Shown here: positions 22,905 through 35,988 of the stretch, in pieces | Position numbering within the stretch: the first letter of the stretch is position 1 | How the letters are laid out: each line of letters begins with the position of its first letter | DNA from: an uncultured Balneola sp. | GTDB lineage: Bacteria; Bacteroidota; Rhodothermia; Balneolales; Balneolaceae | Reading direction: 5' to 3' | Assembly (NCBI GenBank): GCA_913058495.1 | Contig: CAJXQC010000015.1 | Location: forward strand, 1 to 64,000 | Length of the DNA: 64,000 bases | Notes under the pieces: model-generated | The model's input: the letters and a program-made list of their open reading frames with translations, nothing else | What the model was told of the DNA's origin: nothing | Databases searched by the model: none | Program-made: the position numbers and the translations under genes

Positions 22905-25900
22905 CTACTTATCACGAATCAATTTTCTATCCCATAATCCCGAGAATAGAAATAATAATGCTGTACTGAATAATAGCCCCCAGATAACCACAATTGCTAA
23001 GTTTTGCCAGAATTCATCGGTCCCGGAAACAACCATGGGCAGTAATCCCATTATCGTGGTTGTGGTTGTGATCAAAACAGGTCTTAGCTTTTGCCGGAAC
23101 ACTTTATACCAGGCTCTAACTCCTCCTATTCCTCTTTCGCTTTCTTTTTTCCGCTGATGAATTAACAATATCGCATTGTTAACGACTACACCCACACATA
23201 GTAAAGCTCCAGCTATTGCTCCGCGATCAAAACTTAGATCGTTAGCGAGTGTTCCCAACATAATTCCAACTGCGCTGAATGGAATGGTTAGTATAACAAA
23301 CAATGATCCGGACCAGCTTTCCAATAATGCAGATATTATCATCCACACACTTAGAATACTTAGCATAGCAATCAGCCAAAGATTCTTAGTTTGTTCGTCA
23401 TCGTTAAAACTGAATCCCGAAAAACCGTATTTTATTTTAGCTCCAACAGGAACTAGAACTTCTTCTAACATTGATTCCGTAAAGCTCTGAGCCATACGAT
23501 AATTCCCCAAGAAGTTAAAAGTGATCACCCGCTCATAGGATTGATCTGCTCTACGAATTTCAGTGAGCGCTCTTTCTTTGGTAATAGTTCCAAAAGCTTC
23601 CAGGTCAAAGCTCAGATCCTTACTCTTACGCATTCTTGCCATCAGATCCTCTTGGTATAAACGATCGTTCTCAGTTCGGCTGATCAAATACATTTCCTGA
23701 TCTTCAAATTCTACCTTTCCCAAAGAGTTCTCTCGGTTGATATCCATTGCTAAAGCGCTCAACATTGTTCGTCTGTCTAGTCCGCTTGCAAGCAATTTTT
23801 TATCATTGAGCTCCAGATTATACTGATAGAAATCATCTCTGCTGTAGTAAGAACTATTGTTTATATCTACTTCTCTTACCCTTCGGTTTTTTTCGAGCCT
23901 GCGTTGAATTTCGCGTGCCAGATCGTGGAGCTCGTTATAAGCATATCCTGTAAGCGTAATTCTTTGGGATGATGAACCTCCACCGAAGCCTGTACTTGTA
24001 CTCTGCCCAAATCCTGAAACTGAAGTAGCAACATTTCCTGTCTGTGAACCCAAATACATAGCCTCTCCTAAAAAATAGTATGGAGCTACTTCACTCAAAT
24101 ACTCATTTTTTACCGAAAAAGTAAGATAGGCTCCAAAATCTTCAGAAAGCTGTGCCTCATAATAGGAAAATGCATTGGTGTATGGCTTAGCGATCGTTTC
24201 GTAATTCTTTACGACTTTATCAATTTCACTCAATGGAGTTCCCTGTGGACTGCGGATATACACCGATATCTTTTCCTCAGTATCCCGCCTCCATGGACTG
24301 CCAAAGTAGGTTTCTTTAGCAAATTTATATGTCAATCCTCCAATCAGTGGATCAATATCATCACGATTATCAAAATAGATCTGGGTGAATTCCGGCCATG
24401 ATGTATCCTCCCAATCATCCGGAGTTTCTATTACAAAAAGTGGAATTCCTATTACAGCGACAAGCAAAACCGGCAAAATCCACCTCAGTCTGTTTCTGAA
24501 GATCAAAGTACGGAGTGCTTTATGCTTTAACAGACTGCTGATTGATTTCTTATTTACCTTCGCTTTCTCCTTTCCAGAAACAGGTGTTAACCAAATCAGT
24601 GCATAAGGAATCCAGGTAAATGCAATGATCACAGAGCACAATAAAGTAATGGTAAGTGCCACTGCGAGTGGTACCAGAAACAATCTCAATTCCTCCATAG
24701 CAAATAGAAGAGGAACAAAAATTCCGACAGTGGTTAACGTACTGCCCAATACCGGAACAAATGATCCGGGTAGTTCTTTCTTCACATGCTCAACCCTTTC
24801 CCGGCGGTCTTTTGGCAAGCCCGGATTAACCTGTTCAAAAACGACTACAGCGTTATCAATTAGCATTCCCAAAGCAATAGTTAGCCCTGCCAGAGTGATC
24901 ACATTCAGTGTATAATCAAATAGGTACAAAGCAATTATGCTCATAAGAATGGAAAAGAACACGCTTCCTACAATTACAATTGGAGCACGAATCTTTCTTA
25001 TAAACAGAAGCACTACCAAAAATACTAACAACGCACTGAATATTGCCTGATTTGACAACTGATCGAATTGTTCGCGTAACTCTTCGGTAGAATCAACTTG
25101 TAATCTTAGTTCCATCCCATCCGGAAGCACGCGTTCTATTTCTTCCATCTCTGCCAGCACTAATTCTGCTAAACCCATCGCATCAGCACCCGGTTCTTTA
25201 TTCAAACGAATAGTGAGAGCTGTACTTCCATTTACTCTTCTGATGCTTTTCGAGGGATAATCACTTACATAAACAGTAGCTATGTCGCTAAGTCTTAACT
25301 GACGAACGCTCCCAGGAAGAGATATCTTCAAGTTTGAGATATCTGTTGTATTTCGGAAATCAGGAGGCAACACTAAACCAAAGCGTGAATTTTCGGAATC
25401 AATATATCCTGAAGTTCTCCAACTAAGTTTCTCCCTTATTTCATTTGAAATCATTGACGCGTTCAGGTTGTACTTTTCAAGTGCCTGCCGTTCATATTCA
25501 ATGATCAAAGCCGGATCGTCTACTCCTTCAAGAGCAACCTCTGAAATACCTTCGATGCCCAGTAGCTTTGTTTTTATAGACTGTCTGGCATATTCCAGCA
25601 ATGCTTTGCCATCCATATCTCCACTGAGTGTATATACAATAAACGTTTGTTGATCTTCCAGCTCTTCCGGTACGCTTCTGGTAATTTGAGCAGGAGAAAC
25701 GCTCGGGGGTAATGATTGTTCAATAGAAAATAATTGTTCGCGCAATTCCAGCGACCTGAATTCAACCGGAGCATTCTTATTAAATGTGATTGTGACTCTG
25801 GATCTGCCTGACTGGGTTAAAGACCGGATCTCTTTAACATCCCGCAAATTATTAGATACACTTTCAACTCTACGTGTAATCTCCTGCTCAACAATTTCCG

Positions 25901-26057
25901 GGGCTGTATTACCCCAGCTGTAAAACACCGTAATTCTTGGGAGATTAAGTTCCGGTGCATTTTCAACAGGAATGATCATCCACGTAGAAAACCCGACGAT
26001 ACAAACGATCAAATAAAAGAATGAGATCAAATATTTACGTCGCAGCAGTTCTCTCAT
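22905..26057 (-). CDS. RND family efflux permease (second permease of the cluster)
   Basis: 1050 residues, the size of AcrB-type inner-membrane proton-drug antiporters. One helix near the N-terminus, a large periplasmic porter domain, helices 2-6 (from about 337), a second porter domain and helices 8-12. The TM4 proton-relay region reads LGMLIDNAVVVFEQ, with DN where AcrB has two aspartates, as in many RND relatives. The only adaptor of the cluster ends 4 bp upstream, so the two are co-translated. No outer-membrane factor is adjacent. Substrate unknown. Confidence 0.88.
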   Translation of the reverse strand: MRELLRRKYLISFFYLIVCIVGFSTWMIIPVENAPELNLPRITVFYSWGNTAPEIVEQEITRRVESVSNNLRDVKEIRSLTQSGRSRVTITFNKNAPVEFRSLELREQLFSIEQSLPPSVSPAQITRSVPEELEDQQTFIVYTLSGDMDGKALLEYARQSIKTKLLGIEGISEVALEGVDDPALIIEYERQALEKYNLNASMISNEIREKLSWRTSGYIDSENSRFGLVLPPDFRNTTDISNLKISLPGSVRQLRLSDIATVYVSDYPSKSIRRVNGSTALTIRLNKEPGADAMGLAELVLAEMEEIERVLPDGMELRLQVDSTEELREQFDQLSNQAIFSALLVFLVVLLFIRKIRAPIVIVGSVFFSILMSIIALYLFDYTLNVITLAGLTIALGMLIDNAVVVFEQVNPGLPKDRRERVEHVKKELPGSFVPVLGSTLTTVGIFVPLLFAMEELRLFLVPLAVALTITLLCSVIIAFTWIPYALIWLTPVSGKEKAKVNKKSISSLLKHKALRTLIFRNRLRWILPVLLVAVIGIPLFVIETPDDWEDTSWPEFTQIYFDNRDDIDPLIGGLTYKFAKETYFGSPWRRDTEEKISVYIRSPQGTPLSEIDKVVKNYETIAKPYTNAFSYYEAQLSEDFGAYLTFSVKNEYLSEVAPYYFLGEAMYLGSQTGNVATSVSGFGQSTSTGFGGGSSSQRITLTGYAYNELHDLAREIQRRLEKNRRVREVDINNSSYYSRDDFYQYNLELNDKKLLASGLDRRTMLSALAMDINRENSLGKVEFEDQEMYLISRTENDRLYQEDLMARMRKSKDLSFDLEAFGTITKERALTEIRRADQSYERVITFNFLGNYRMAQSFTESMLEEVLVPVGAKIKYGFSGFSFNDDEQTKNLWLIAMLSILSVWMIISALLESWSGSLFVILTIPFSAVGIMLGTLANDLSFDRGAIAGALLCVGVVVNNAILLIHQRKKESERGIGGVRAWYKVFRQKLRPVLITTTTTIMGLLPMVVSGTDEFWQNLAIVVIWGLLFSTALLFLFSGLWDRKLIRDK

Positions 26058-26061
26058 CAGA

Positions 26062-27123
26062 TTAATTATCCATTAATGGAATTACCTTCTGTTGATGGCT
26101 GATACTAAAATGTTTGTCAACAGCAAGTGTGTCGCCCGGATTTATCTCTTCATGATCGATAAGCACCCATTCCGTATTCATTTCTTCCGGAGTAACATAG
26201 ATCCACTCCACTTCGCCTTTGTTCAGCTTAAACACGAGTGTTCTGCCATCTCTGGCAAGCAAACTCTCTCGCGGCATTCTCACTTTGGATGTAGCACTTC
26301 GTACAAAGATTCTTCCTTCGATCGTCATTCCTGTTTTAAGTGAGCCATCGGGATTATCAACTTCAACGATGGCCTGTCCCGTTTTCGATTCCTGATCGAT
26401 CTCAGGAGAAATGGCTGTGATCTTTCCAGTGTAGTTTTCCTGAGCAGGTCCTTCCAGTTCTACTTCCATCCCGGGTTTCAGATCAACGATTTCTTTTTCA
26501 AGTACATCGAAGCGAATCTTTACGGTATTGGTGTTAACAAAACTCCCCAATTCCTTACCTGCTCCTACATACGCACCATCTGTTACAACTTCTTTGGTTG
26601 AAATGTATCCTGAAAAAGGTGCTTTAATAGTTGTGTAACTAAGATCGAGTTTAGCTCTGTCGTAATTCAATTCTGCTTCAGATAATCCCGTATTGATCTT
26701 CATCAAAGAATTCTGAGTGGTATCCTGATTGAGCTCTCCTCTTAGTCTGAGTTCTGTTTCGTACTCATTTTTTGCTTTTAGATATTTATTGTAGGCATCA
26801 TTCTTTCTGAATTCCCATTCTTCTTTATCAAACTGAAGAATGATGTCACCTTTTTCCAGCCACTTCCCGTCTGTAACATTATGAGTTTCCACAAAACCGC
26901 CGATACGCGGGGTGATCAATATTTTTTTGTCGGGCTCTACAACTCCTCTGCTTTCGATATAATAGCGAAGTGGCTCATCGTCAACTACGGTAAACACTAC
27001 TTCCGGCAGAATCTCGATGCTGTCCAGATCCGGAGTTTCCACTTTTTCTTTTTTTCCTTTACAGGAGATCAATAGCCCTGCAAGGATTAATATTACAAAT
27101 GATGCTCTGAATATTTTTTCCAT
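26062..27123 (-). CDS. RND efflux periplasmic adaptor (HlyD/MFP family lipoprotein)
   Basis: 353 residues. The signal peptide ends in the lipobox LLISC, predicting a lipid anchor on Cys21. A lipoyl/barrel-sandwich half (about 65-105), a coiled-coil hairpin (about 105-150), the second half with TIKAPFSGYISTKE (about 165-178) and beta-barrel and membrane-proximal domains follow. A good ribosome-binding site (AAGGA) precedes the ATG. It sits between two different RND permease genes on one strand and may bridge either or both to a TolC-type channel. Confidence 0.88.
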   Translation of the reverse strand: MEKIFRASFVILILAGLLISCKGKKEKVETPDLDSIEILPEVVFTVVDDEPLRYYIESRGVVEPDKKILITPRIGGFVETHNVTDGKWLEKGDIILQFDKEEWEFRKNDAYNKYLKAKNEYETELRLRGELNQDTTQNSLMKINTGLSEAELNYDRAKLDLSYTTIKAPFSGYISTKEVVTDGAYVGAGKELGSFVNTNTVKIRFDVLEKEIVDLKPGMEVELEGPAQENYTGKITAISPEIDQESKTGQAIVEVDNPDGSLKTGMTIEGRIFVRSATSKVRMPRESLLARDGRTLVFKLNKGEVEWIYVTPEEMNTEWVLIDHEEINPGDTLAVDKHFSISHQQKVIPLMDN

Positions 27124-27243
27124 TTCGTATCCTTTAACAATGCGGGTTAAAACCCTTTCCGGTTTACTGCTAAAATTTGATTTAATTCCATCGATCCTGA
27201 AAGATCTCCAAGTTTAAATTCATACATAACTAACACATTCCAA

Positions 27244-27305
27244 ATTGACACATTCTTAATTCTTAATTGACACATTCTTAATTCTTAATTGACACATTCT
27301 TAATT
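27244..27305. repeat. 22-bp tandem repeat overlapping the 3' end of the RND gene
   Basis: Unit ATTGACACATTCTTAATTCTTA occurs twice exactly (27244-27265, 27266-27287), then partially (27288-27305), with degenerate copies on both flanks. Read on the minus strand, the partial copies encode the last residues of the upstream RND permease and supply its stop codon. Confidence 0.9.
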
Positions 27306-30300
27306 GAACCATTCTCAATTCTCCTCCTTCCTTCAATCCATTTAAAAACCATTGGAATCAAATACAGAGTTAAAAGCGTGCTGGTTACCATCCCTCCCAT
27401 CAGAGCAATTGCCAATGATTGTCTCAGAACATAGCCATCACCAAACGGAATCAACATGGGGATCAATCCTAAAATAGTTGTTAAACTGGTCATTACAACC
27501 GGACGAAATCTGTTTTTTCCTGCTTCTCTTACCGCTTCTTCCAGGTCTCCTGTTTCTTCATAATAGCGTCGCATAAAATCCACTTTCAGGATGGAGTCAT
27601 TAACAGCAATTCCGGTCAGGATCAGAATTCCCATAAATGAAAGTGCATTTAAACTTACACCGCCAAGATAAAGTGCAAATACAGAACCGATCCAGGCAAA
27701 TGGAATTGCCAGAATAATGATAAACGGATATTTCAGGTTTTCATACTGAATGGCAAGGATCAAATAGATCAACAGTACACTTATGGACAACAAAAGACCC
27801 AGTTCTTTCAATAGGTTTATTAACTGAATCGCGGTTCCTCCAATTTTGATTTCATGCCCTGTTCGTTGCATAAAATCATTTACTTGCTCCCGGATCTCAT
27901 CCGAATTCCACCACCAATCCACAAAAGTAAAATCAGAATTGTATGTTAAGATAGCCGATTGTTCCAACCGCTCTATCTGTTCTGCTTCATCTACCACATT
28001 GATCAAAGCGATCTCGGAAAGTGGAATCACTTTATTTTTTATGTTCAGCCTTATTTCTTGAGGATCTGTAAGATTTTCACCCTCTCCCAAGAGCCGGATA
28101 GCAATTTGCTCATCCTGTCTGTTCCAGTCCGTTACATACATTCCCCGCGTTAGTGACTCCAGATAAGCAATTACATCCCGTTCACTGATCTCATAAAACA
28201 GTAACCGATCATTTTTCAGCTGTAATTGATAAGCTTCTACAGTTTGAGGAAACTTTTCTGACAATGACACTTCTTTGAAACCCTTGCTCATGTAATCTTC
28301 CAAAGCGATGCCGATCCTTTTACTGAAATTACGGTCTATCCCAACTACGCTGAATTGTACCGGAGCTTCAACTGAAGAACTGCTCCCTCCTATTCGTGAA
28401 TCTCCTTGTTTATTGAACGACCACGTCTGATAAGTTTTCTGCAAGGATGAAAAAAGATCTTCAATCCGGTAAGCTTCCTGCCAGTTTTGTACCGGCACAG
28501 TGATCTTAAATTTGTTGAGACCTTCATCCTGTATAGAACTTAAACTTGTGTTATCGGTGTATCCACCAACCGACAGAATTTGAACAGAATTTGTCTCTCT
28601 TTTTATAAAATCTGTAATGGTTTTAGAAGCGTCTTTTGAAGATCGTAAAGAAGTATTTCCGGGTAGAGTTACCAGATATTCAACGCGTTCAGGTTCGCCT
28701 TCGGGCAAGGCGTCTTTCTGAACATTTAAAAAAGCGAATACAGCAACTGCGCTTACTACCAAAGTAAAAAGAATAGGGAGAAGTGGTTTATTTATAGCCT
28801 TAGCTAAACTCATCTCGTACTTTTGGATCACCGTGTCTAATCCGGAAGATATCTTTGAAAGAAAACCCGAAGTCCCTTTCCCACTGAACTGAACAACAAA
28901 AACCGGTAAGATCACTAATGCAATCAGCAGAGATGAAAGCAAGCTTATAGAAAGAGTGGCTGCAAGATCCCTGAAAAAAGCACCCTCAAATCCACCCAGA
29001 AAAATGAGCGGAAGAAATACAGAAATAGTAGTAAAAGTGGACGCAGTAACTGCCAATGCTATTTCTTTAGTCCCTTTGGCAGCTGCTTCGTATTTATCCA
29101 ATCCTTGTTTTTTATAGCGATTGATATTCTCTAAAACCACAATGGAGTTATCCAGCAACAGACCAATACCCAACGTGAGACCACTCAGAGAAATGATATT
29201 CAACTGAATATCAAATAAATACATGATCACAAAAGTGAGGAAAATACTGACAGGAATAGAGATCCCGATAGTAAAAGGACTCCGAATATCATCCAGAAAC
29301 AAAAAAAGAACGATAAACGCCAGTATACCACCAATAATCAGCGTTTGAAGAAGATTAGAAATGGAATTTTCGATGTAGGTAGCATCTTCCCGGATGATCT
29401 GAATATCGAATTCAGGGTTTTGTGTTTTGATCTCGTTTACTGCATTCTGCAAAGTCTCAAACACTGTAACGGTATTTGCTCCGTATTCTTTTTTAACCAA
29501 AACATTCAAGACTTCCTGATTATCCAGCAAAGCAAAAGAAGAAGTATCGGATTCTCGGATCTCAACATCTGCAATTTCTGATAGTGTAAGTACGCGGCCG
29601 TTTGCCAATGAAATAACCGGAATCAACTCAATATCTTCGATGGTCTCAATTCGGCTTTGGATCTTTATAGCATAGCGATACCAGCCATCCCGAAGTTCTC
29701 CTGTGGAAGAAAACACGTTTGCATTGCTGATGATCTGCTGAACCTGAGTAAGTGTAAGTCCATATCGATCTAACAATTTGGGATCGTAATTGATCTGTAC
29801 TTCCGGTTCCACTTCTCCCACCAACAGTGCCTGAGCAATTCCATCCTGTTGCTCCAACCGACGCGTAAAAACTTGCTCTGCCCAGCGTTTTGTGGCCAAG
29901 CGTTTTCCGAAACTTTGGTTCTCTGCGTCTTTTAAAGTTACTGCGATCGTAGCTATAGGCTCATCTGAAGCTGAAGAATAGACAAGTTGAGGTCGTTCCG
30001 CATTTTCAGGGAGCAATGGTCTTGCCTGATCCAGTTTCTCCCGGACATTCAGAAATGCCAGATCCATATCTGTTCCCCATTTGAAGGTGAGGAAAATGAG
30101 ACTTTGTCCTTGTCTGGAAAGACTTCGTGTTTCCTGCACGCCACGAACGGAACCAAGTGTCCCTTCCAATCGCTCATTGATTCTGTACTCTACATCTGCG
30201 GCCGGAGCACCTTTATATTCGGTACTGATCAACAGCGTGGGTGGATTCACATTTGGAAGCAACTCAATAGAAAGCCGTGACAGTGTAATCCCTCCAAAAA

Positions 30301-30352
30301 TAAGCACGGCGAGCACCAGAATTACAGAAGCTATAGGCTTTCTTAATAGCAA
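27278..30352 (-). CDS. RND family efflux permease (first permease of the cluster)
   Basis: 1024 residues with an AcrB-type layout: helix 1 about 9-27, porter domain, helices 2-6 from about 335, second porter domain, helices to the end. TM4 reads LGIGLLLDNSIVVLENI, again DN. The start is TTG at 30352; an in-frame stop lies just upstream. The C-terminal residues NGSIKNVSIKN come from repeat units at 27278-27312, so the true tail was replaced or extended by the repeat. The gene precedes the adaptor by 154 bp, much of it repeat. Two permeases with one adaptor recalls heteromeric MdtBC-type pumps, but that is inference. Confidence 0.87.
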   Translation of the reverse strand: MLLRKPIASVILVLAVLIFGGITLSRLSIELLPNVNPPTLLISTEYKGAPAADVEYRINERLEGTLGSVRGVQETRSLSRQGQSLIFLTFKWGTDMDLAFLNVREKLDQARPLLPENAERPQLVYSSASDEPIATIAVTLKDAENQSFGKRLATKRWAEQVFTRRLEQQDGIAQALLVGEVEPEVQINYDPKLLDRYGLTLTQVQQIISNANVFSSTGELRDGWYRYAIKIQSRIETIEDIELIPVISLANGRVLTLSEIADVEIRESDTSSFALLDNQEVLNVLVKKEYGANTVTVFETLQNAVNEIKTQNPEFDIQIIREDATYIENSISNLLQTLIIGGILAFIVLFLFLDDIRSPFTIGISIPVSIFLTFVIMYLFDIQLNIISLSGLTLGIGLLLDNSIVVLENINRYKKQGLDKYEAAAKGTKEIALAVTASTFTTISVFLPLIFLGGFEGAFFRDLAATLSISLLSSLLIALVILPVFVVQFSGKGTSGFLSKISSGLDTVIQKYEMSLAKAINKPLLPILFTLVVSAVAVFAFLNVQKDALPEGEPERVEYLVTLPGNTSLRSSKDASKTITDFIKRETNSVQILSVGGYTDNTSLSSIQDEGLNKFKITVPVQNWQEAYRIEDLFSSLQKTYQTWSFNKQGDSRIGGSSSSVEAPVQFSVVGIDRNFSKRIGIALEDYMSKGFKEVSLSEKFPQTVEAYQLQLKNDRLLFYEISERDVIAYLESLTRGMYVTDWNRQDEQIAIRLLGEGENLTDPQEIRLNIKNKVIPLSEIALINVVDEAEQIERLEQSAILTYNSDFTFVDWWWNSDEIREQVNDFMQRTGHEIKIGGTAIQLINLLKELGLLLSISVLLIYLILAIQYENLKYPFIIILAIPFAWIGSVFALYLGGVSLNALSFMGILILTGIAVNDSILKVDFMRRYYEETGDLEEAVREAGKNRFRPVVMTSLTTILGLIPMLIPFGDGYVLRQSLAIALMGGMVTSTLLTLYLIPMVFKWIEGRRRIENGSIKNVSIKN

Positions 30353-30510: not shown

Positions 30511-31074
30511 TCAGAATATGAATACCACTTTTCCTACAATATTCTCTCTTGAAATAAATCCCCAGAACCTGGAATCCATACTTTCATAATAGTTATCGCC
30601 TACCATAAAGAAATATCCTTCTGGAATAACAAGCCTATTTTCTGATCCTGATAATGCTATTAACTGATCCTTTTTTGACAAATTTCTAACTAAATATTTT
30701 TGGTATTTTTTAGATGAAAATAACCCTAAAGAATCCGGATTATCAGACTCTTCGACCATCATTTCAAAAATAGAATCATGTGGAATTCTCAGGTCTTCGA
30801 TTTTGATGTAATTTCGTAATAAGTTAAGCGTATCTCCTGCTACCCCATACACCCTTTTTATAAAAGTAGTTTTATCTTCCCCGTGCTGAAAGGATAAAAT
30901 ATCACCTTTCTTAAGATTATCATCTTTAAAGCTCTTACTCGTAACAACTATATCACCAACTTGAATGATCTCTTCCATAGAAGGTGTTATTATTTTGTAG
31001 GGTTTTATAACAAAAATTATTATAAAGCCTATGAACACAACTATAGTAGTAAAAATCAATATGTATTTTTTCAA
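30511..31074 (-). CDS. Signal peptidase I, short form, in a peptide operon
   Basis: 187 residues, shorter than the usual Bacteroidetes housekeeping LepB. One N-terminal helix (about 5-23) anchors the enzyme with its active site outside the membrane. The catalytic serine region is ITPSMEEIIQVGD (Ser at about 32), the lysine is in FIKRVYGVAGDTL (about 70-82) and the C-terminal box VGDNYYESMDSRFWGFI is intact, so it should be active. It is the last gene of the MauE-peptide-propeller operon (11-bp gap). I infer that it processes the small peptide, whose precursor has an AYA site. Confidence 0.88.
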   Translation of the reverse strand: MKKYILIFTTIVVFIGFIIIFVIKPYKIITPSMEEIIQVGDIVVTSKSFKDDNLKKGDILSFQHGEDKTTFIKRVYGVAGDTLNLLRNYIKIEDLRIPHDSIFEMMVEESDNPDSLGLFSSKKYQKYLVRNLSKKDQLIALSGSENRLVIPEGYFFMVGDNYYESMDSRFWGFISRENIVGKVVFIF

Positions 31075-31085
31075 ATTGAATAAAT

Positions 31086-32087
31086 CTATTCTTTGTTCAT
31101 TTTGAATATATAAAATTCTCTCTCTTGTCTTTCAAAATCATAAGCGTTTATAAGTAGCTTGTCTTTTTGAATTTCGATATTACTAAACAAATGCTTTAAT
31201 TTTACTGAGAAATTATACTTTAAAGTTTCTTTGTCATAAAAATCTAAAATGTTACCATGTCCATCTTTTCTTCCTGAATGAAACACCACTAAGTAATCTT
31301 GAAATAACCCAATATCTCTCGTTTGATATTTGAACTCAGAGTCTCTTTTAGTCCTTATTTCCTCGTCACTTTTAGATATATTCACTTTGTTTTTTTCTTC
31401 ACTCTTTTCAATAGTGTATCTTACTACCACAGATTCGTCATTTAAATAATTATACTTCTTAATCTCTGGTTTACCCTCTGATCCAAAATAAATAAAGCTA
31501 CTGTCAGCTGTTATACTTCCTGAATCAAGAAATCCATCATTACTCAAAGTATTATCTTTGATACCCTTTATTAAGATTCCATCATTTTTGTATACCAAAT
31601 AGTTACCGTCTTTCGTTCCTGAGTTGTTATATACTATTATTTTATCACCATAACATGTCAACCTATACGGTATAAATCGTTTAGTTTTAAAACTTTTTAT
31701 CAATACTTTAGATTTTATGTCCCATATAGATATTCTTGCTAAATCTGTATCAGAAATGATGATTTTTTCATCTGTAATACACATATCTGACGGGTTTCTA
31801 AATTCTTTAGGACCTGAACCTTTTCCTTCTCCTACAGATCGCACGTTATAAGATTGAGAATCCTTTTTTTCTAATGCGTATAGATTATGCTGTGAGTAAT
31901 CATAAATAAATAAATTATTTTGATTTATTCCCATTCCAAAAATTACCGGCCTAAACAATTCATAATCAGATGGGTAAAATCTTTGCGTTTCTACTATAAA
32001 GTCTTCTTTAAAGACTCGACTTTTTTGAGCAAAGCTTACAAAGCTAATTTTTAGAAAGAATAAAAGTAGAGTGATTTTTTTTATCAT
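31086..32087 (-). CDS. Secreted six-bladed beta-propeller protein
   Basis: 333 residues with a signal peptide (1-20, ending SFAQ). The segment GEGKGSGPKEFRNPSDM (about 86-102) followed by repeated short strands matches the NHL/6-bladed propeller family common in Bacteroidetes, whose blades start at G-P-x-E-F. There is no lipobox, so it is probably periplasmic or exported. It follows the peptide gene after a hairpin and precedes lepB by 11 bp. From memory, such propellers occur next to NVEALA-type peptides in Bacteroides; a binding or immunity role for the peptide is inference. Confidence 0.72.
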   Translation of the reverse strand: MIKKITLLLFFLKISFVSFAQKSRVFKEDFIVETQRFYPSDYELFRPVIFGMGINQNNLFIYDYSQHNLYALEKKDSQSYNVRSVGEGKGSGPKEFRNPSDMCITDEKIIISDTDLARISIWDIKSKVLIKSFKTKRFIPYRLTCYGDKIIVYNNSGTKDGNYLVYKNDGILIKGIKDNTLSNDGFLDSGSITADSSFIYFGSEGKPEIKKYNYLNDESVVVRYTIEKSEEKNKVNISKSDEEIRTKRDSEFKYQTRDIGLFQDYLVVFHSGRKDGHGNILDFYDKETLKYNFSVKLKHLFSNIEIQKDKLLINAYDFERQEREFYIFKMNKE

Positions 32088-32096
32088 ATCGAATTG

Positions 32097-32127
32097 TAAA
32101 GTATCAACTTTAAAAGTTGATACTTTA
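32097..32127 (-). promoter_or_regulatory. Perfect 14-bp intercistronic hairpin after the peptide gene
   Basis: Arms 32097-32110 and 32114-32127 are exactly complementary around a TAA loop, filling most of the 48-bp gap between the peptide stop and the propeller start. No T-run follows on the minus strand. Such a stem commonly protects the upstream mRNA or partly terminates, giving more product from the upstream gene than from the downstream ones. Confidence 0.7.
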
Positions 32128-32135
32128 ATTAATTT

Positions 32136-32393
32136 TTATAATTGTTCTATAGGCTGAACAGTTGTCCAGCAAATACGCTCGAAAGCTCCCCATAGTATTC
32201 TTATCACCATACACTTGTCATTACCCCCAATACAACCATTATCATTACATGGTCCTGCGTAGGCTTCTTCCATTCCAATAATTATTGGAATAGTTTCCAT
32301 ACTTCCGGACTCACTATTAAACTGGAATCCGCTTACAAGAGCAACTACCATGGCAATTGCTACAATTTTATTGATGTAGTTTTTAATCTTCAT
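32136..32393 (-). CDS. Small secreted four-cysteine peptide precursor
   Basis: 85 residues, no close family recognised. A basic N-terminus (MKIKNYINK) and hydrophobic helix (about 10-23) are followed by a 23-residue linker ending in GMEEAYA, then a 39-residue region beginning GPCNDNGC with cysteines at 49, 54, 61 and 75 and a hydrophobic MVIRILWGAFERICW stretch. The layout resembles Bacteroides NVEALA precursors, whose leader ends in a similar A-x-A-like motif. AYA is a signal peptidase I site, and a signal peptidase is encoded in the same operon. The four cysteines could form two disulfides. An unusually strong ribosome-binding site suggests high expression. It may be a signal, bacteriocin-like or structural peptide. 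Confidence 0.75.
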   Translation of the reverse strand: MKIKNYINKIVAIAMVVALVSGFQFNSESGSMETIPIIIGMEEAYAGPCNDNGCIGGNDKCMVIRILWGAFERICWTTVQPIEQL

Positions 32394-32399
32394 CGCTGT

Positions 32400-32404
32400 C
32401 TCCT
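32400..32404 (-). promoter_or_regulatory. Strong Shine-Dalgarno site of the peptide gene
   Basis: AGGAG lies 6 bases before the peptide ATG and overlaps the stop codon of the upstream MauE-like gene. The other genes of the operon lack a comparable site, so the peptide should be translated most strongly. Confidence 0.75.
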
Positions 32405-32855
32405 ATTTGTTATTGTTAGTTAATGATCCGGTTTGGATCAAATTTTTATACTTAGTCAAGTCTATTGTTATCCACATAGCCATTGATAAAAGAAGTGAGT
32501 TGCGAAATAGCATAGCGCTATCAAATTTTCCAAATGAAAACCTTCCAAAACAACCACATGTTACCTGCCAATTATCTAAATAACCTACTAGAGAAATTAT
32601 TAGAAACAAGCTGCAAGAAAGCACTACTAGCTTTTTTGTGAATATCTCTTTGAATTTTAATGCAAGACTTAACCCAAGGAAAATTTCAATTAAGGCGATT
32701 GAATAGACTATTAAAGAAGCAGTACCATGCTCAATTTCAAAAAGAAAAACTAAAATATCGCCTGTATTATCAGGACTAAATATTTTCAATATTCCTGCTG
32801 CAACAAATATAAATGACAGTATCCAAGTGAAGTATTTTTTTAATGAGTTATCCAT
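32403..32855 (-). CDS. MauE/DoxX-like membrane protein with CGCFG motif
   Basis: 150 residues with four hydrophobic helices (about 9-26, 45-66, 75-92, 115-132). The loop VTCGCFGRFSFGK (cysteines at 100 and 102) is the mark of the MauE/DoxX-like family; MauE is needed to mature the disulfide-rich methylamine dehydrogenase subunit. A redox role in forming disulfides in the neighbouring four-cysteine peptide is a reasonable inference. First gene of the four-gene operon, 9 bp before the peptide gene, which follows it directly; no thioredoxin-like MauD is nearby. Confidence 0.75.
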   Translation of the reverse strand: MDNSLKKYFTWILSFIFVAAGILKIFSPDNTGDILVFLFEIEHGTASLIVYSIALIEIFLGLSLALKFKEIFTKKLVVLSCSLFLIISLVGYLDNWQVTCGCFGRFSFGKFDSAMLFRNSLLLSMAMWITIDLTKYKNLIQTGSLTNNNK

Positions 32856-32949
32856 GATTCTATTGCTTGAATTTTGACTTCTTCAAGTATTCTAAATCAT
32901 GAAATGAGTAGCAAAAAGTTTGATTAGTCTTTTAGTGTAGCACAAAATC

Positions 32950-33354
32950 CTAGTGCAAATTCCTATCTTTTTTTGCTATCCGATTTTTCCAAATAGTTCG
33001 TTTCGTAATCTTTCCTGTACGTATTCCCCTCTTAAATTCTGTTGGATTTTTACCAATATGAGAGCGTAAATATTTATTCAAAGCTACTTCATCAGGAAGT
33101 CCTACCTCTTGCGCGTCACAATAATTTTTCTGATTTGGGTTTTTCTGAATGCAATCGAAAAGTTTCTCGACTCTTTCTCTAATAAGGGCTTCCTTGCAAG
33201 TTACTCCAAAGTGTCTTCTAAACAGACGGGCAAAATATTTAGGATCACTGCAACCCATTTCAGCTGACCACTCTTGAACAGTGCGTACTTCTCTTATTTT
33301 AGGTTTAAGCACCTTTAAAGCATTTTCTATCTCTTCCATACAAAATAAGTTCAC
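32950..33354 (-). CDS. Stand-alone AraC-type DNA-binding protein
   Basis: 134 residues from a GTG at 33354; an ATG at 33339 gives 129 residues (MEEIENALKVLKP) and may be the real start. Two helix-turn-helix regions of an AraC/XylS domain are visible: TVQEWSAEMGCSDPKYFARL then FRRHFGVTCKEALIRERVEK, and PDEVALNKYLRSHIGKNPTEFKRG. There is no separate ligand-binding domain. It is 94 bp upstream of the MauE-peptide operon on the same strand and is its likely regulator. The tail is strongly basic. Confidence 0.75.
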   Translation of the reverse strand: MNLFCMEEIENALKVLKPKIREVRTVQEWSAEMGCSDPKYFARLFRRHFGVTCKEALIRERVEKLFDCIQKNPNQKNYCDAQEVGLPDEVALNKYLRSHIGKNPTEFKRGIRTGKITKRTIWKNRIAKKDRNLH

Positions 33355-33884: not shown

Positions 33885-35390
33885 CTATATTTGTTTTCGA
33901 AGTCTTGCCACAGGTTCGTTTAATTGCTCTCTGTATTTGCTTACCGTTCTGCGGGCAACTTTATATCCCTTTTCATTCAGCTGATTTGCAAGATCCTGAT
34001 CGCTCATCGGGTTTCGTTTGTCTTCTTCATCAATAATGGTTTGAAGAATATTTTTAACCTCCCTGTTGGAAACCTCTTCCCCACTGTCCGTTTCCATTCC
34101 TTCATTAAAGAAATACTTTAGTTCATGAACACCGAAATTGGTTTGCACATATTTCCCATTCACTACTCTTGAGATCGTGGAGATATCCATCCCGATCCGC
34201 TCTGCAATGTCTTTAAGGATCATAGGCTTCAGACTGTCGCCATACTTGAAGAAATCTTCCTGAAGGGCAACCATGGTCTTCATCACATTCATCAACGTAT
34301 TCTGTCGCTGTTTGATGGATTCGATAAACCAATTGGCCGAGTCGATCTTTCCTTTTATAAAATTCTGTGTTTGCTGATCCGGCTTCTCCCTCTTTTCCTT
34401 GATATCTTGCCACATCTCCTTGTAGTCGGGGGAAATCCGAAGTGAGGGTGAATTTCTTTGATTCAGATTTATGAGGAACTCTCCTTTATCAAGATTTGAT
34501 TCATCAGTATTTCTCCAGTACACTTCAAAATCGGGTTCAATGTAATTCTGGGATTCTTCCATTCCGGTTGATACTGCTCCGGGACGTGGATCCATTCCCT
34601 TGATCACATCAAAAGCGTCTTTTAGTTCTTCTTCTGATACATTGAATTTCTGAAGCAGCTTATTGAAATGCTTCTTCTCAAAAGCTTGCCATGCATCTTT
34701 AACAATGTCGATAGCCAGCTCTCTGCCATCCAGTTCATTGGAGGATTGCTCGATCTGTACCAACAAACAATCCTGTAAACTCATAGATGCTATGCCGATG
34801 GGATCGAGCAACTGAATTTGTTTTCGGATGCGGTCCACATCTTCCACTTCCACATACACACTGTGATTGAAAGCAATATTATCGGCTACGGCTTCCAGTT
34901 CTCGCCTGAAATAACCGTCTTCATCCAGCGAACCCAGGATCTGATCGGCTATCAATTCTTCCTCTTCAGTCAGATCCAGCAAACTCACCTGCTCTTCCAG
35001 CTCTTCCAAAAAAGACGCATGATAAGGATCGGGAAGATCCTGCCACTCCTGCATATCCGGATGTGTGGGAGTAGAATAAGACTCTCCCTCAAATTCAGTA
35101 TTGGAATCAAATTCATCCCAGTCTACTTCGTGTTCTTCAAGCGTTTCTAGTCCGTCTTCTTTTTCCTGGGAAATTGGTTTTTCATCTTCAATTTCAACTC
35201 TCTCCTGTCGAATTTCTCCGGGTTCTGCTTCTTCCAGAATGGGATTCAGTTCCAGCTCTTCTTTGATCCGTTGCTCCAGAGCTATGGTCGGTAACTGAAG
35301 CAACTTGATGAACTGCAATTGTTGTGGCGACAGTTTTTGCTGCTGACCCAGTTGCTGCTTTTGGCTAATATTTTGTTGATTCCGAAGCAT
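33885..35390 (-). CDS. rpoN: RNA polymerase sigma-54 factor
   Basis: 501 residues. The Gln-rich activator-interacting region I (MLRNQQNISQ, then KLSPQQLQFIKLLQLP) is followed by a long acidic linker (about 55-115), the core-binding domain and the C-terminal DNA-binding part with the RpoN box ARRTVSKYRE (about 479-488) recognising the -24 element. Sigma-54 needs an AAA+ activator, none of which is in the window. It follows the DUF3109 gene by 2 bp on the same strand. Confidence 0.96.
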   Translation of the reverse strand: MLRNQQNISQKQQLGQQQKLSPQQLQFIKLLQLPTIALEQRIKEELELNPILEEAEPGEIRQERVEIEDEKPISQEKEDGLETLEEHEVDWDEFDSNTEFEGESYSTPTHPDMQEWQDLPDPYHASFLEELEEQVSLLDLTEEEELIADQILGSLDEDGYFRRELEAVADNIAFNHSVYVEVEDVDRIRKQIQLLDPIGIASMSLQDCLLVQIEQSSNELDGRELAIDIVKDAWQAFEKKHFNKLLQKFNVSEEELKDAFDVIKGMDPRPGAVSTGMEESQNYIEPDFEVYWRNTDESNLDKGEFLINLNQRNSPSLRISPDYKEMWQDIKEKREKPDQQTQNFIKGKIDSANWFIESIKQRQNTLMNVMKTMVALQEDFFKYGDSLKPMILKDIAERIGMDISTISRVVNGKYVQTNFGVHELKYFFNEGMETDSGEEVSNREVKNILQTIIDEEDKRNPMSDQDLANQLNEKGYKVARRTVSKYREQLNEPVARLRKQI

Positions 35391-35392
35391 GC

Positions 35393-35977
35393 CTAGTCTA
35401 CTTCCTGTTCTCGTATATAGTTACAAGCAGCTTTAAATTCGTCATACCAATCTTCACCATAACGTCTGGTCAGTGGTTTTTCCAGAAAATCGGATAAATA
35501 AATTCCTTCTTTGCTTCCCTTATCACAAGCAGCAGAACATAAACTGTCTACATATTCGAAGTTGGCGTAATCAAAGTCAGCAATCTTCTTTAACCGTACC
35601 GGAAACAAGTGGCAACTCAATGGCTTTTCCCAGTCAATGCGTCCGTCAAAATAAGCTTGTTGGATAGAACAATATGAAACGTCGTTATCTCCATACTTCA
35701 CAAATATACATTCAGCTTCATTTACACAAGCGATCTCATATCCGGCTTTTTCGCTTCCGATGACTACACCATCTCGTTCGGCGACTTCTACCGCTTCCGG
35801 TCTCAGTTCATCTTTTAATAACCGATAGGCTTTATGTAATACGGGAATTTCATCTTTTACAACCGGAGCTCCTGCGTCCCCCACTACACAACATGCTCCT
35901 TTGCATCGCGGCAAATCGCATGCGAATTTCGTGGTTGCAATCTCTTCTGTAAGAATGGTGTCTTGAACTTTGAACAT
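35393..35977 (-). CDS. DUF3109 family cysteine-cluster protein
   Basis: 194 residues from the ATG at 35977. Cysteines are arranged as in DUF3109/YkgJ-like proteins: CDLPRCKGACC near the N-terminus, CVNEAECIF (about 86), SYCSIQ, LSCHLFPVR and SLCSAACD, suggesting a metal or Fe-S site. Function is not established. It is 2 bp from rpoN and has a consensus -7 element immediately upstream, so this is probably the promoter of a DUF3109-rpoN operon. Confidence 0.85.
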   Translation of the reverse strand: MFKVQDTILTEEIATTKFACDLPRCKGACCVVGDAGAPVVKDEIPVLHKAYRLLKDELRPEAVEVAERDGVVIGSEKAGYEIACVNEAECIFVKYGDNDVSYCSIQQAYFDGRIDWEKPLSCHLFPVRLKKIADFDYANFEYVDSLCSAACDKGSKEGIYLSDFLEKPLTRRYGEDWYDEFKAACNYIREQEVD

Positions 35978-35980
35978 ATC

Positions 35981-35988
35981 CAAAGATA
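35981..35988 (-). promoter_or_regulatory. Bacteroidetes-type -7 element of the DUF3109-rpoN operon
   Basis: The minus strand reads TATCTTTG, an exact TAnnTTTG match, ending 3 bases before the ATG at 35977. The message would be almost leaderless. No convincing -33 TTG element was identified. Confidence 0.5.

Follow-up and report, generated by a model that had tools for sequence, protein, structure and literature searches.

We have analyzed a compact gene cassette in an uncultured Balneola sp. that is predicted to encode an exported four-Cys peptide together with a beta-propeller that appears to be its specific partner. The window, as we call the whole stretch of DNA analyzed here, is 64,000 nucleotides long (GenBank assembly GCA_913058495.1, contig CAJXQC010000015.1, positions 1 to 64,000). 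Five open reading frames (ORFs) lie on its minus strand: a stand-alone AraC-type DNA-binding protein of 134 amino acids (32950..33354), a MauE-family membrane protein (32403..32855), an 85-residue precursor (32136-32393), an exported six-bladed NHL-type beta-propeller (31086..32087), and a second, dedicated type I signal peptidase, LepB (30511..31074), with gaps of 9, 48 and 11 bp between the last four. All five ORFs are confirmed where an earlier description made from the letters of the window alone (the sequence-only reading) had placed them, as is its account of the precursor as a hydrophobic leader, an AYA motif and a Cys-containing tail of 39 residues, the tail holding four Cys. Neither precursor nor propeller matches a Pfam or NCBIfam family above its cut-off, an Rfam scan of the window gave zero matches, and neither the peptide nor the propeller subgroup is represented by a family model.

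The precursor divides into a 46-residue leader (32256..32393), with a hydrophobic segment and a spacer of about 22 residues that ends in EAYA, and the predicted mature peptide (GPCNDNGCIGGNDKC...C..., 39 residues plus the stop codon, 32136..32255). Across nine homologues the x-A at the end of the leader is invariant, as are G47, P48, C49, G53, C54, G56, C61 and C75, giving the pattern A-G-P-C, G-C, G, C, V, C, and no Trp is invariant among the nine. Compared with the genome G002 (G and L numbers denote our genomes and loci), the ratio of nonsynonymous (dN) to synonymous (dS) divergence, omega, is 0.086 for the whole peptide and 0.02 for the mature part (dN 0.033, dS 1.44); the sequence-only reading had supposed the frame to be conserved, and with omega not near 1 it is evidently under strong purifying selection. 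With its hydrophobic leader and AYA↓G junction (the arrow marks the proposed cleavage), and a cassette that lacks a C39 exporter, the peptide is not of the double-glycine class II bacteriocin type, and a double-glycine peptide profile finds no match in the source genome. A tblastn search of plasmids returned no match to the peptide, its profile gave a single non-significant match among PDB sequences (E 0.91), and the DUF6520 profile (PF20130) reaches 12.6 bits against the window proteins, below its cut-off of 25.4. The NVEALA family (PF14055) has no match above cut-off in 198 genomes of the phylum, the two weak matches lying away from cassette loci; it is likewise absent from the source genome at E <= 1e-3 and from the nine peptide homologues.

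The AlphaFold model of the propeller (pLDDT 84, pTM 0.83) has as its closest solved fold the six-bladed Brat NHL domain (Z 25.2, rmsd 3.0 over 257 residues), and relatives of the protein match NHL (E 1.3e-6) and DUF5128 (E 7e-4). The model predicts no membrane segment beyond the signal sequence, and the propellers of AYA-type cassettes have no lipobox, which would make them soluble periplasmic proteins. We prefer a binding role over that of a metal-dependent enzyme because no His is conserved among the propellers; a PAL-type amidating enzyme (3fvz, Z 20.6) was rejected as the identity of the protein on the same ground. The propeller in the window has two Cys, at 103 and 145, and the positions of such Cys follow the type of peptide: GG-type peptides go with Cys at 103 and 145; beside RRGC-type peptides, one Cys stands at the equivalent of 145 and the other roughly 50 residues further on.

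One indication that these two proteins belong together is that they vary together. In Mantel tests, distances between mature peptides correlate with those between propellers across seven complete cassettes (r 0.81, p 0.003), across 11 loci (r 0.79, p 1e-4) and across 14 loci (r 0.71, p 5e-5), although the sets are small and share ancestry and the p values are guides only. For the same seven, the propeller gives values of -0.04 against the leader, 0.01 against LepB, 0.20 against MauE and 0.03 against RND1 of the neighboring efflux pump, while the distances of AraC, MauE and RND1 track one another at 0.64-0.74. Simple linkage is a less likely cause because moving along the propeller gene does not weaken the correlation (0.49, 0.66, 0.77 and 0.69 in successive quarters), and the leader lies equally close to the propeller yet does not track it, with correlations of about 0 to 0.2 over the locus sets. 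One relative, G004, illustrates what underlies this pattern. Its RpoN divergence from the window genome (dS 0.42) is smaller than that of G002 (dS 1.69), and its AraC protein (90% identity), MauE (67%) and leader (74%) are kept, but the mature peptide is only 31% and the propeller 19% identical; nucleotide identity drops at the border between leader and mature part (~32300) and recovers at LepB (~31000). The mature peptide and propeller of G004 have thus been replaced jointly within an otherwise kept operon. The co-variation supports the propeller as the specific partner of the peptide, which it would presumably bind.

Complete MauE-peptide-propeller-LepB cassettes are present in six other Balneolaceae genomes, with the AraC gene first in four (G002, G024, G004 and G028) and 3' of LepB in two (G091 and G030), and this recurring order is the co-occurrence across relatives that the sequence-only reading had anticipated. 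The peptide profile matches 12 of the 245 genomes of the class, all of them Balneolaceae; named records with cassette peptide loci (Balneola sp. EAC52, Balneola sp. HXMU1428-10, Balneolaceae MES10, Gracilimonas sp. ALOHA and G. mengyeensis DSM 21985) overlap the G-numbered genomes and are not additional. The cassette is therefore real as a unit, but the proposal of a four-family set has to be narrowed: G036, G090, G035 and G037 carry peptide and propeller without MauE or LepB, and the constant core is peptide plus propeller, with MauE and LepB as accessories that other Balneolaceae loci replace by a C39 exporter and VKOR. In G090 and G036 (L098, L100) the minimal pair sits in a housekeeping neighborhood without MauE, LepB or regulator, and the precursors are long and lack an A-x-A motif.

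The accessory genes suggest how the peptide would be matured. The cassette LepB is a type I signal peptidase by profile (PF10502, E 4.7e-34; TIGR02227 above cut-off) with a Ser32/Lys73 dyad that is kept in its homologues, that of G024 having a frameshifted N-terminus; it is one of two LepBs found in the genome, the other being on contig C3. The motif [A/V]-x-A↓GPC is present at all nine loci with a cassette LepB and in none of five related peptides from loci without one (G036, G090, G035 and two in G037), an association expected by chance once in 2002 (calculated by hand) and one that bears out the tie between LepB and peptide made in the sequence-only reading. We infer from this motif and its co-occurrence that LepB cleaves the precursor at A-x-A↓GPC. 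The site lies about 22 residues past the hydrophobic segment, usual signal-peptide cleavage sites sit closer to it, and this unusual distance may explain why a dedicated LepB is kept. MauE matches PF07291 with 53 bits (cut-off 27, E 5.7e-14) and has a C-G-C motif (C100-G-C102) in all members; the family and the invariant Cys make it the likely disulfide-forming partner of the peptide. A role for MauE in disulfide formation has been speculated for methylamine dehydrogenase (MADH), as cited in PMC7794033, where MauE homologues are also noted in candidate clusters for ribosomally synthesized and post-translationally modified peptides of Streptomyces, in passages that mention no propellers.

Two further elements may regulate the cassette. 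The AraC protein consists of a DNA-binding domain only (HTH_18, PF12833, E 1.4e-11). The spacer between its gene and that of MauE (32856..32949, minus strand) is well conserved when G000, G002 and G004 are compared and contains a repeated TGCTAC(A/T)C, a candidate operator for the AraC protein. Between the peptide and propeller genes there is a predicted stem-loop (32097..32127, minus strand; 14-bp stem, z -6.2), and strong stem-loops (z -5 to -7) are predicted at this place in eight of the nine LepB cassettes. Their sequences are largely unrelated, the window and G002 sharing theirs. The element is likely an attenuator or a 3'-end protector, and would fit expression of the peptide in excess over the propeller.

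The sequence-only reading, which saw no usual housekeeping context for any gene of the set, needs correcting in that the context is not arbitrary. In the window the cassette lies between an efflux operon encoding AcrB, a membrane-fusion protein and AcrB (22905..30352, minus strand; PF00873, PF16576) and, as the other conserved flank outside the system, rpoN (sigma-54) with a DUF3109 gene (33885..35983, minus strand; profile matches and synteny). In most carriers it adjoins this resistance-nodulation-division (RND) operon, often between the operon and rpoN; the operon is adjacent in G002, G024, G091, G030 and G028, and in G012 and G037 the peptide and propeller genes lie inside it. The RND operon is a conserved anchor of a variable locus and a possible export route. 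At this locus many Balneolaceae (L174-L208) also carry arrays with up to six or more propellers of the six-bladed kind; the majority lack a recognizable peptide and are possible orphan immunity or receptor genes, and a search for double-glycine peptides beside all orphan propellers gave only a handful at the RND locus a peptide. An exported Cys-rich ORF precedes 27 of the 132 non-redundant propellers at these loci, compared with six of 239 other ORFs (p 1.6e-8). In G014 (L099:5900-6700) a truncated AcrB frame runs into the remnant of an AFAGPC peptide and an AraC-like fragment, which appears to be a decayed cassette within an RND gene.

Counterparts of the pair occur with other export machinery. 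In G004 an array between the cassette and the RND operon (L175:5700-20000, L063:1-4400) holds at least six double-glycine six-Cys peptides, several of them followed directly by a DUF5128 propeller, together with HlyD, a C39-peptidase ABC exporter and a VKOR-thioredoxin protein. The leaders match PF10439, TIGR04149 and NF047798, mostly just under cut-off, and the corresponding peptide profile matches 17 of 89 Balneolaceae genomes. At the loci fetched, a propeller stands directly 3' of the double-glycine Cys-rich peptide in 32 of 36 cases, resemblance between cores goes with resemblance between propellers (Mantel p 6e-4; mean rank 0.18, where 0.5 is expected), and the propellers are mostly lipoproteins (21 of 36 by a strict rule, most of the others by eye). 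In other Bacteroidota, DUF6520 four-Cys peptides are found beside MauE and a propeller, usually fused as one protein, and this fusion provides an independent link of MauE to the propeller. Its model has a predicted helical membrane part and a six-bladed propeller (3s9j, DUF4221, Z 19.1; Brat NHL, Z 18.4), and the propeller profiles of the window type and of the DUF6520 clusters align with a probability of 93% (E 2.5e-7). The peptide and DUF6520 profiles give a probability of 0.8% (hhalign); sequence kinship between them is rejected, only the arrangement of Cys being similar.

The DUF6520 clusters (L133-L143, L209-L219) consist of an AraC/PAS or Crp-like regulator, the fusion and DUF6520, opposite an operon of SusC-, SusD- and S9-peptidase-like genes (named by eye), and neighboring ORFs that by eye look transposition- or mobilization-like suggest mobile elements. 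Separately, Cys-rich peptides with leaders LSGISALA and LSGLNALA lie 5' of propellers at L069:5278-5556 and L187:5944-6231. These leaders resemble by eye the NVEALA leader of Bacteroidales; the L069 peptide matches no Pfam family, and that of L187 was compared with NCBIfam only.

Taken together, the conservation of the cassette and the pairing of peptide and propeller are well supported, and they uphold the idea of an exported-peptide system that has not been described before and brings its own maturation genes. We propose that the AraC protein would control the operon, with the stem-loop, predicted and recurrent, setting the peptide message in excess over that of the propeller. The precursor would enter the Sec pathway and remain anchored by its N-terminal hydrophobic segment until the dedicated LepB cuts it, and two disulfides would be formed by the action of MauE or, in two relatives, of a thioredoxin-like protein. 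The exported propeller would then bind the mature peptide specifically, and the RND pump next door may carry the peptide out of the periplasm. We suggest, with less assurance than for export and maturation, that the system most likely serves to antagonize close relatives: the peptide would be bacteriocin-like, and the propeller would be a LanI-like, binding-type immunity protein. We prefer antagonism because the closest counterparts are bacteriocin-type peptides that come with a propeller of like kind, because peptide and propeller are exchanged as a pair among close relatives, and because peptide-less propellers accumulate at the locus as orphan immunity genes do. For the whole of this reading, that the cassette makes, exports and matures a four-Cys peptide and supplies a matching propeller, most likely as immunity in antagonism, we estimate a probability of roughly 0.55.

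Several observations weigh against it. The mature peptide is not cationic and resembles no known toxin. The correlation samples are small and related, and as peptide and propeller adjoin in the DNA, part of their co-variation could be linkage. G021 and G012 have no MauE beside the peptide, a thioredoxin-like ORF (with CxxC in G021 only) standing between propeller and LepB, and the G021 cassette is away from the RND operon. About 100 of the 132 propellers at the loci examined have no recognized neighboring peptide, so that either this fold has other roles or many of them are orphans.

Other arrangements have to be considered. The peptide could be the small subunit of an obligate two-subunit envelope complex, enzymatic or structural, matured by MauE and docked on the propeller as the MADH light chain is on the heavy chain. 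The mau cluster combines the same parts, among them, as in G021 and G037, a thioredoxin-like CxxC protein, MauE and propeller are fused in the DUF6520 clusters, and subunits of a complex co-evolve too. However, the want of an invariant Trp in the peptide leaves a tryptophan tryptophylquinone or cysteine tryptophylquinone cofactor unsupported, the propeller is six-bladed and NHL-like with no conserved His, and pair swapping and double-glycine counterparts ill suit a housekeeping enzyme; we regard such a complex as unlikely. We give still less credence to a peptide signal, in which a secreted pheromone is captured by the periplasmic propeller and the AraC protein is the response regulator. The cassette does include a regulator, and pheromone systems typically combine variable specificity with constant processing genes, but that regulator has a DNA-binding domain only, the modeled propeller has no membrane segment beyond its signal sequence, and the cassette has neither a sensor kinase nor a signaling TonB receptor.

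The sequence-only reading had the propeller bind or protect the peptide, and of these the specific partnership stands on the co-variation, while protection is the less likely role when set against binding of the immunity kind. A propeller that acts in maturation as chaperone or carrier, keeping the peptide safe until its release, would fit the co-variation, as would any specific binding, and the AYA-type propellers, lacking a lipobox, would be soluble where the peptide matures. It is opposed by the double-glycine pairs, in which the propellers are mostly lipoproteins and a dedicated ABC exporter handles the peptides, by the stem-loop, which suggests less propeller than peptide, and by the common peptide-less propellers at the same locus, and we hold it to be about as improbable as the signal. 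That the operon is a coincidental collection of unrelated envelope genes is hardly credible: Balneolaceae do have an abundance of propellers of this fold, but the kept gene order, the strong purifying selection on the peptide, the specific co-variation and the return of the pair in different export contexts contradict it. The sequence-only interpretation is thus upheld in part, and it had missed the RND-locus link, the stem-loop and both the DUF6520 and double-glycine counterparts.

Returning to the antagonism reading, the cassette would be the Sec, signal peptidase and MauE version of a wider peptide-propeller system in which the propeller is a cognate binding protein and probably an immunity protein. 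A broader generalization, to which we give somewhat less than even odds, is that Balneolaceae, and in other forms the wider Bacteroidota, have a general two-part scheme that pairs a small, disulfide-rich secreted peptide with its own propeller whatever the export route (Sec with LepB and MauE, or a C39 ABC exporter with VKOR), the propeller being a swappable immunity or receptor protein of a new peptide-recognition class. Very large numbers of six-bladed propellers (DUF5128 and kin) and of small exported Cys-rich proteins (DUF6520, NVEALA, TIGR04149) in Bacteroidota lack an explanation; should many of them prove to be matched pairs, a testable function would be gained for both groups at once. 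There would then be a new kind of immunity or receptor protein that binds peptides and whose specificity can be swapped, a purpose for stand-alone signal peptidases and for MauE proteins outside methylamine metabolism, and, in the propeller, a search rule for new bacteriocin-like peptides. In the open-access literature we found no paper describing the cassette, NVEALA, DUF6520 or propeller-paired bacteriocins of Bacteroidota.

Among known systems, the double-glycine class II clusters of Bacteroidota (TIGR04149, NF047798, C39 exporter, HlyD, VKOR) share with the cassette a small disulfide-rich secreted peptide, a dedicated leader protease, a dedicated oxidizing protein, a hypervariable core after a conserved leader and, in Balneolaceae, a propeller after the peptide; the cassette differs in having a Sec-type anchor with A-x-A↓GPC, LepB in place of the C39 exporter, and MauE in place of VKOR. 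The DUF6520 clusters share MauE, propeller, an exported four-Cys peptide with a similar Cys spacing (C-x5..7-C-x7..8-C-x..-C) and an AraC- or Crp-type regulator, but there MauE and propeller are usually fused, we saw no LepB, the neighbors are SusC/SusD- and S9-peptidase-like, and the peptide profiles are unalignable. The mau genes of methylamine dehydrogenase likewise combine a propeller subunit, a small Cys-rich subunit, MauE and a thioredoxin-like protein, whereas the cassette has a propeller of the six-bladed NHL type, a peptide without the conserved Trp that a quinone cofactor would need, its own signal peptidase and pair swapping; membership of the peptide among the small subunits of MADH or quinohemoprotein amine dehydrogenase (QHNDH) is rejected, there being no invariant Trp in the nine homologues. 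The LanI lipoproteins confer binding-type immunity to lantibiotics, and they too are secreted binding proteins encoded beside the peptide; with their different fold, they offer a parallel in how the propeller may work.

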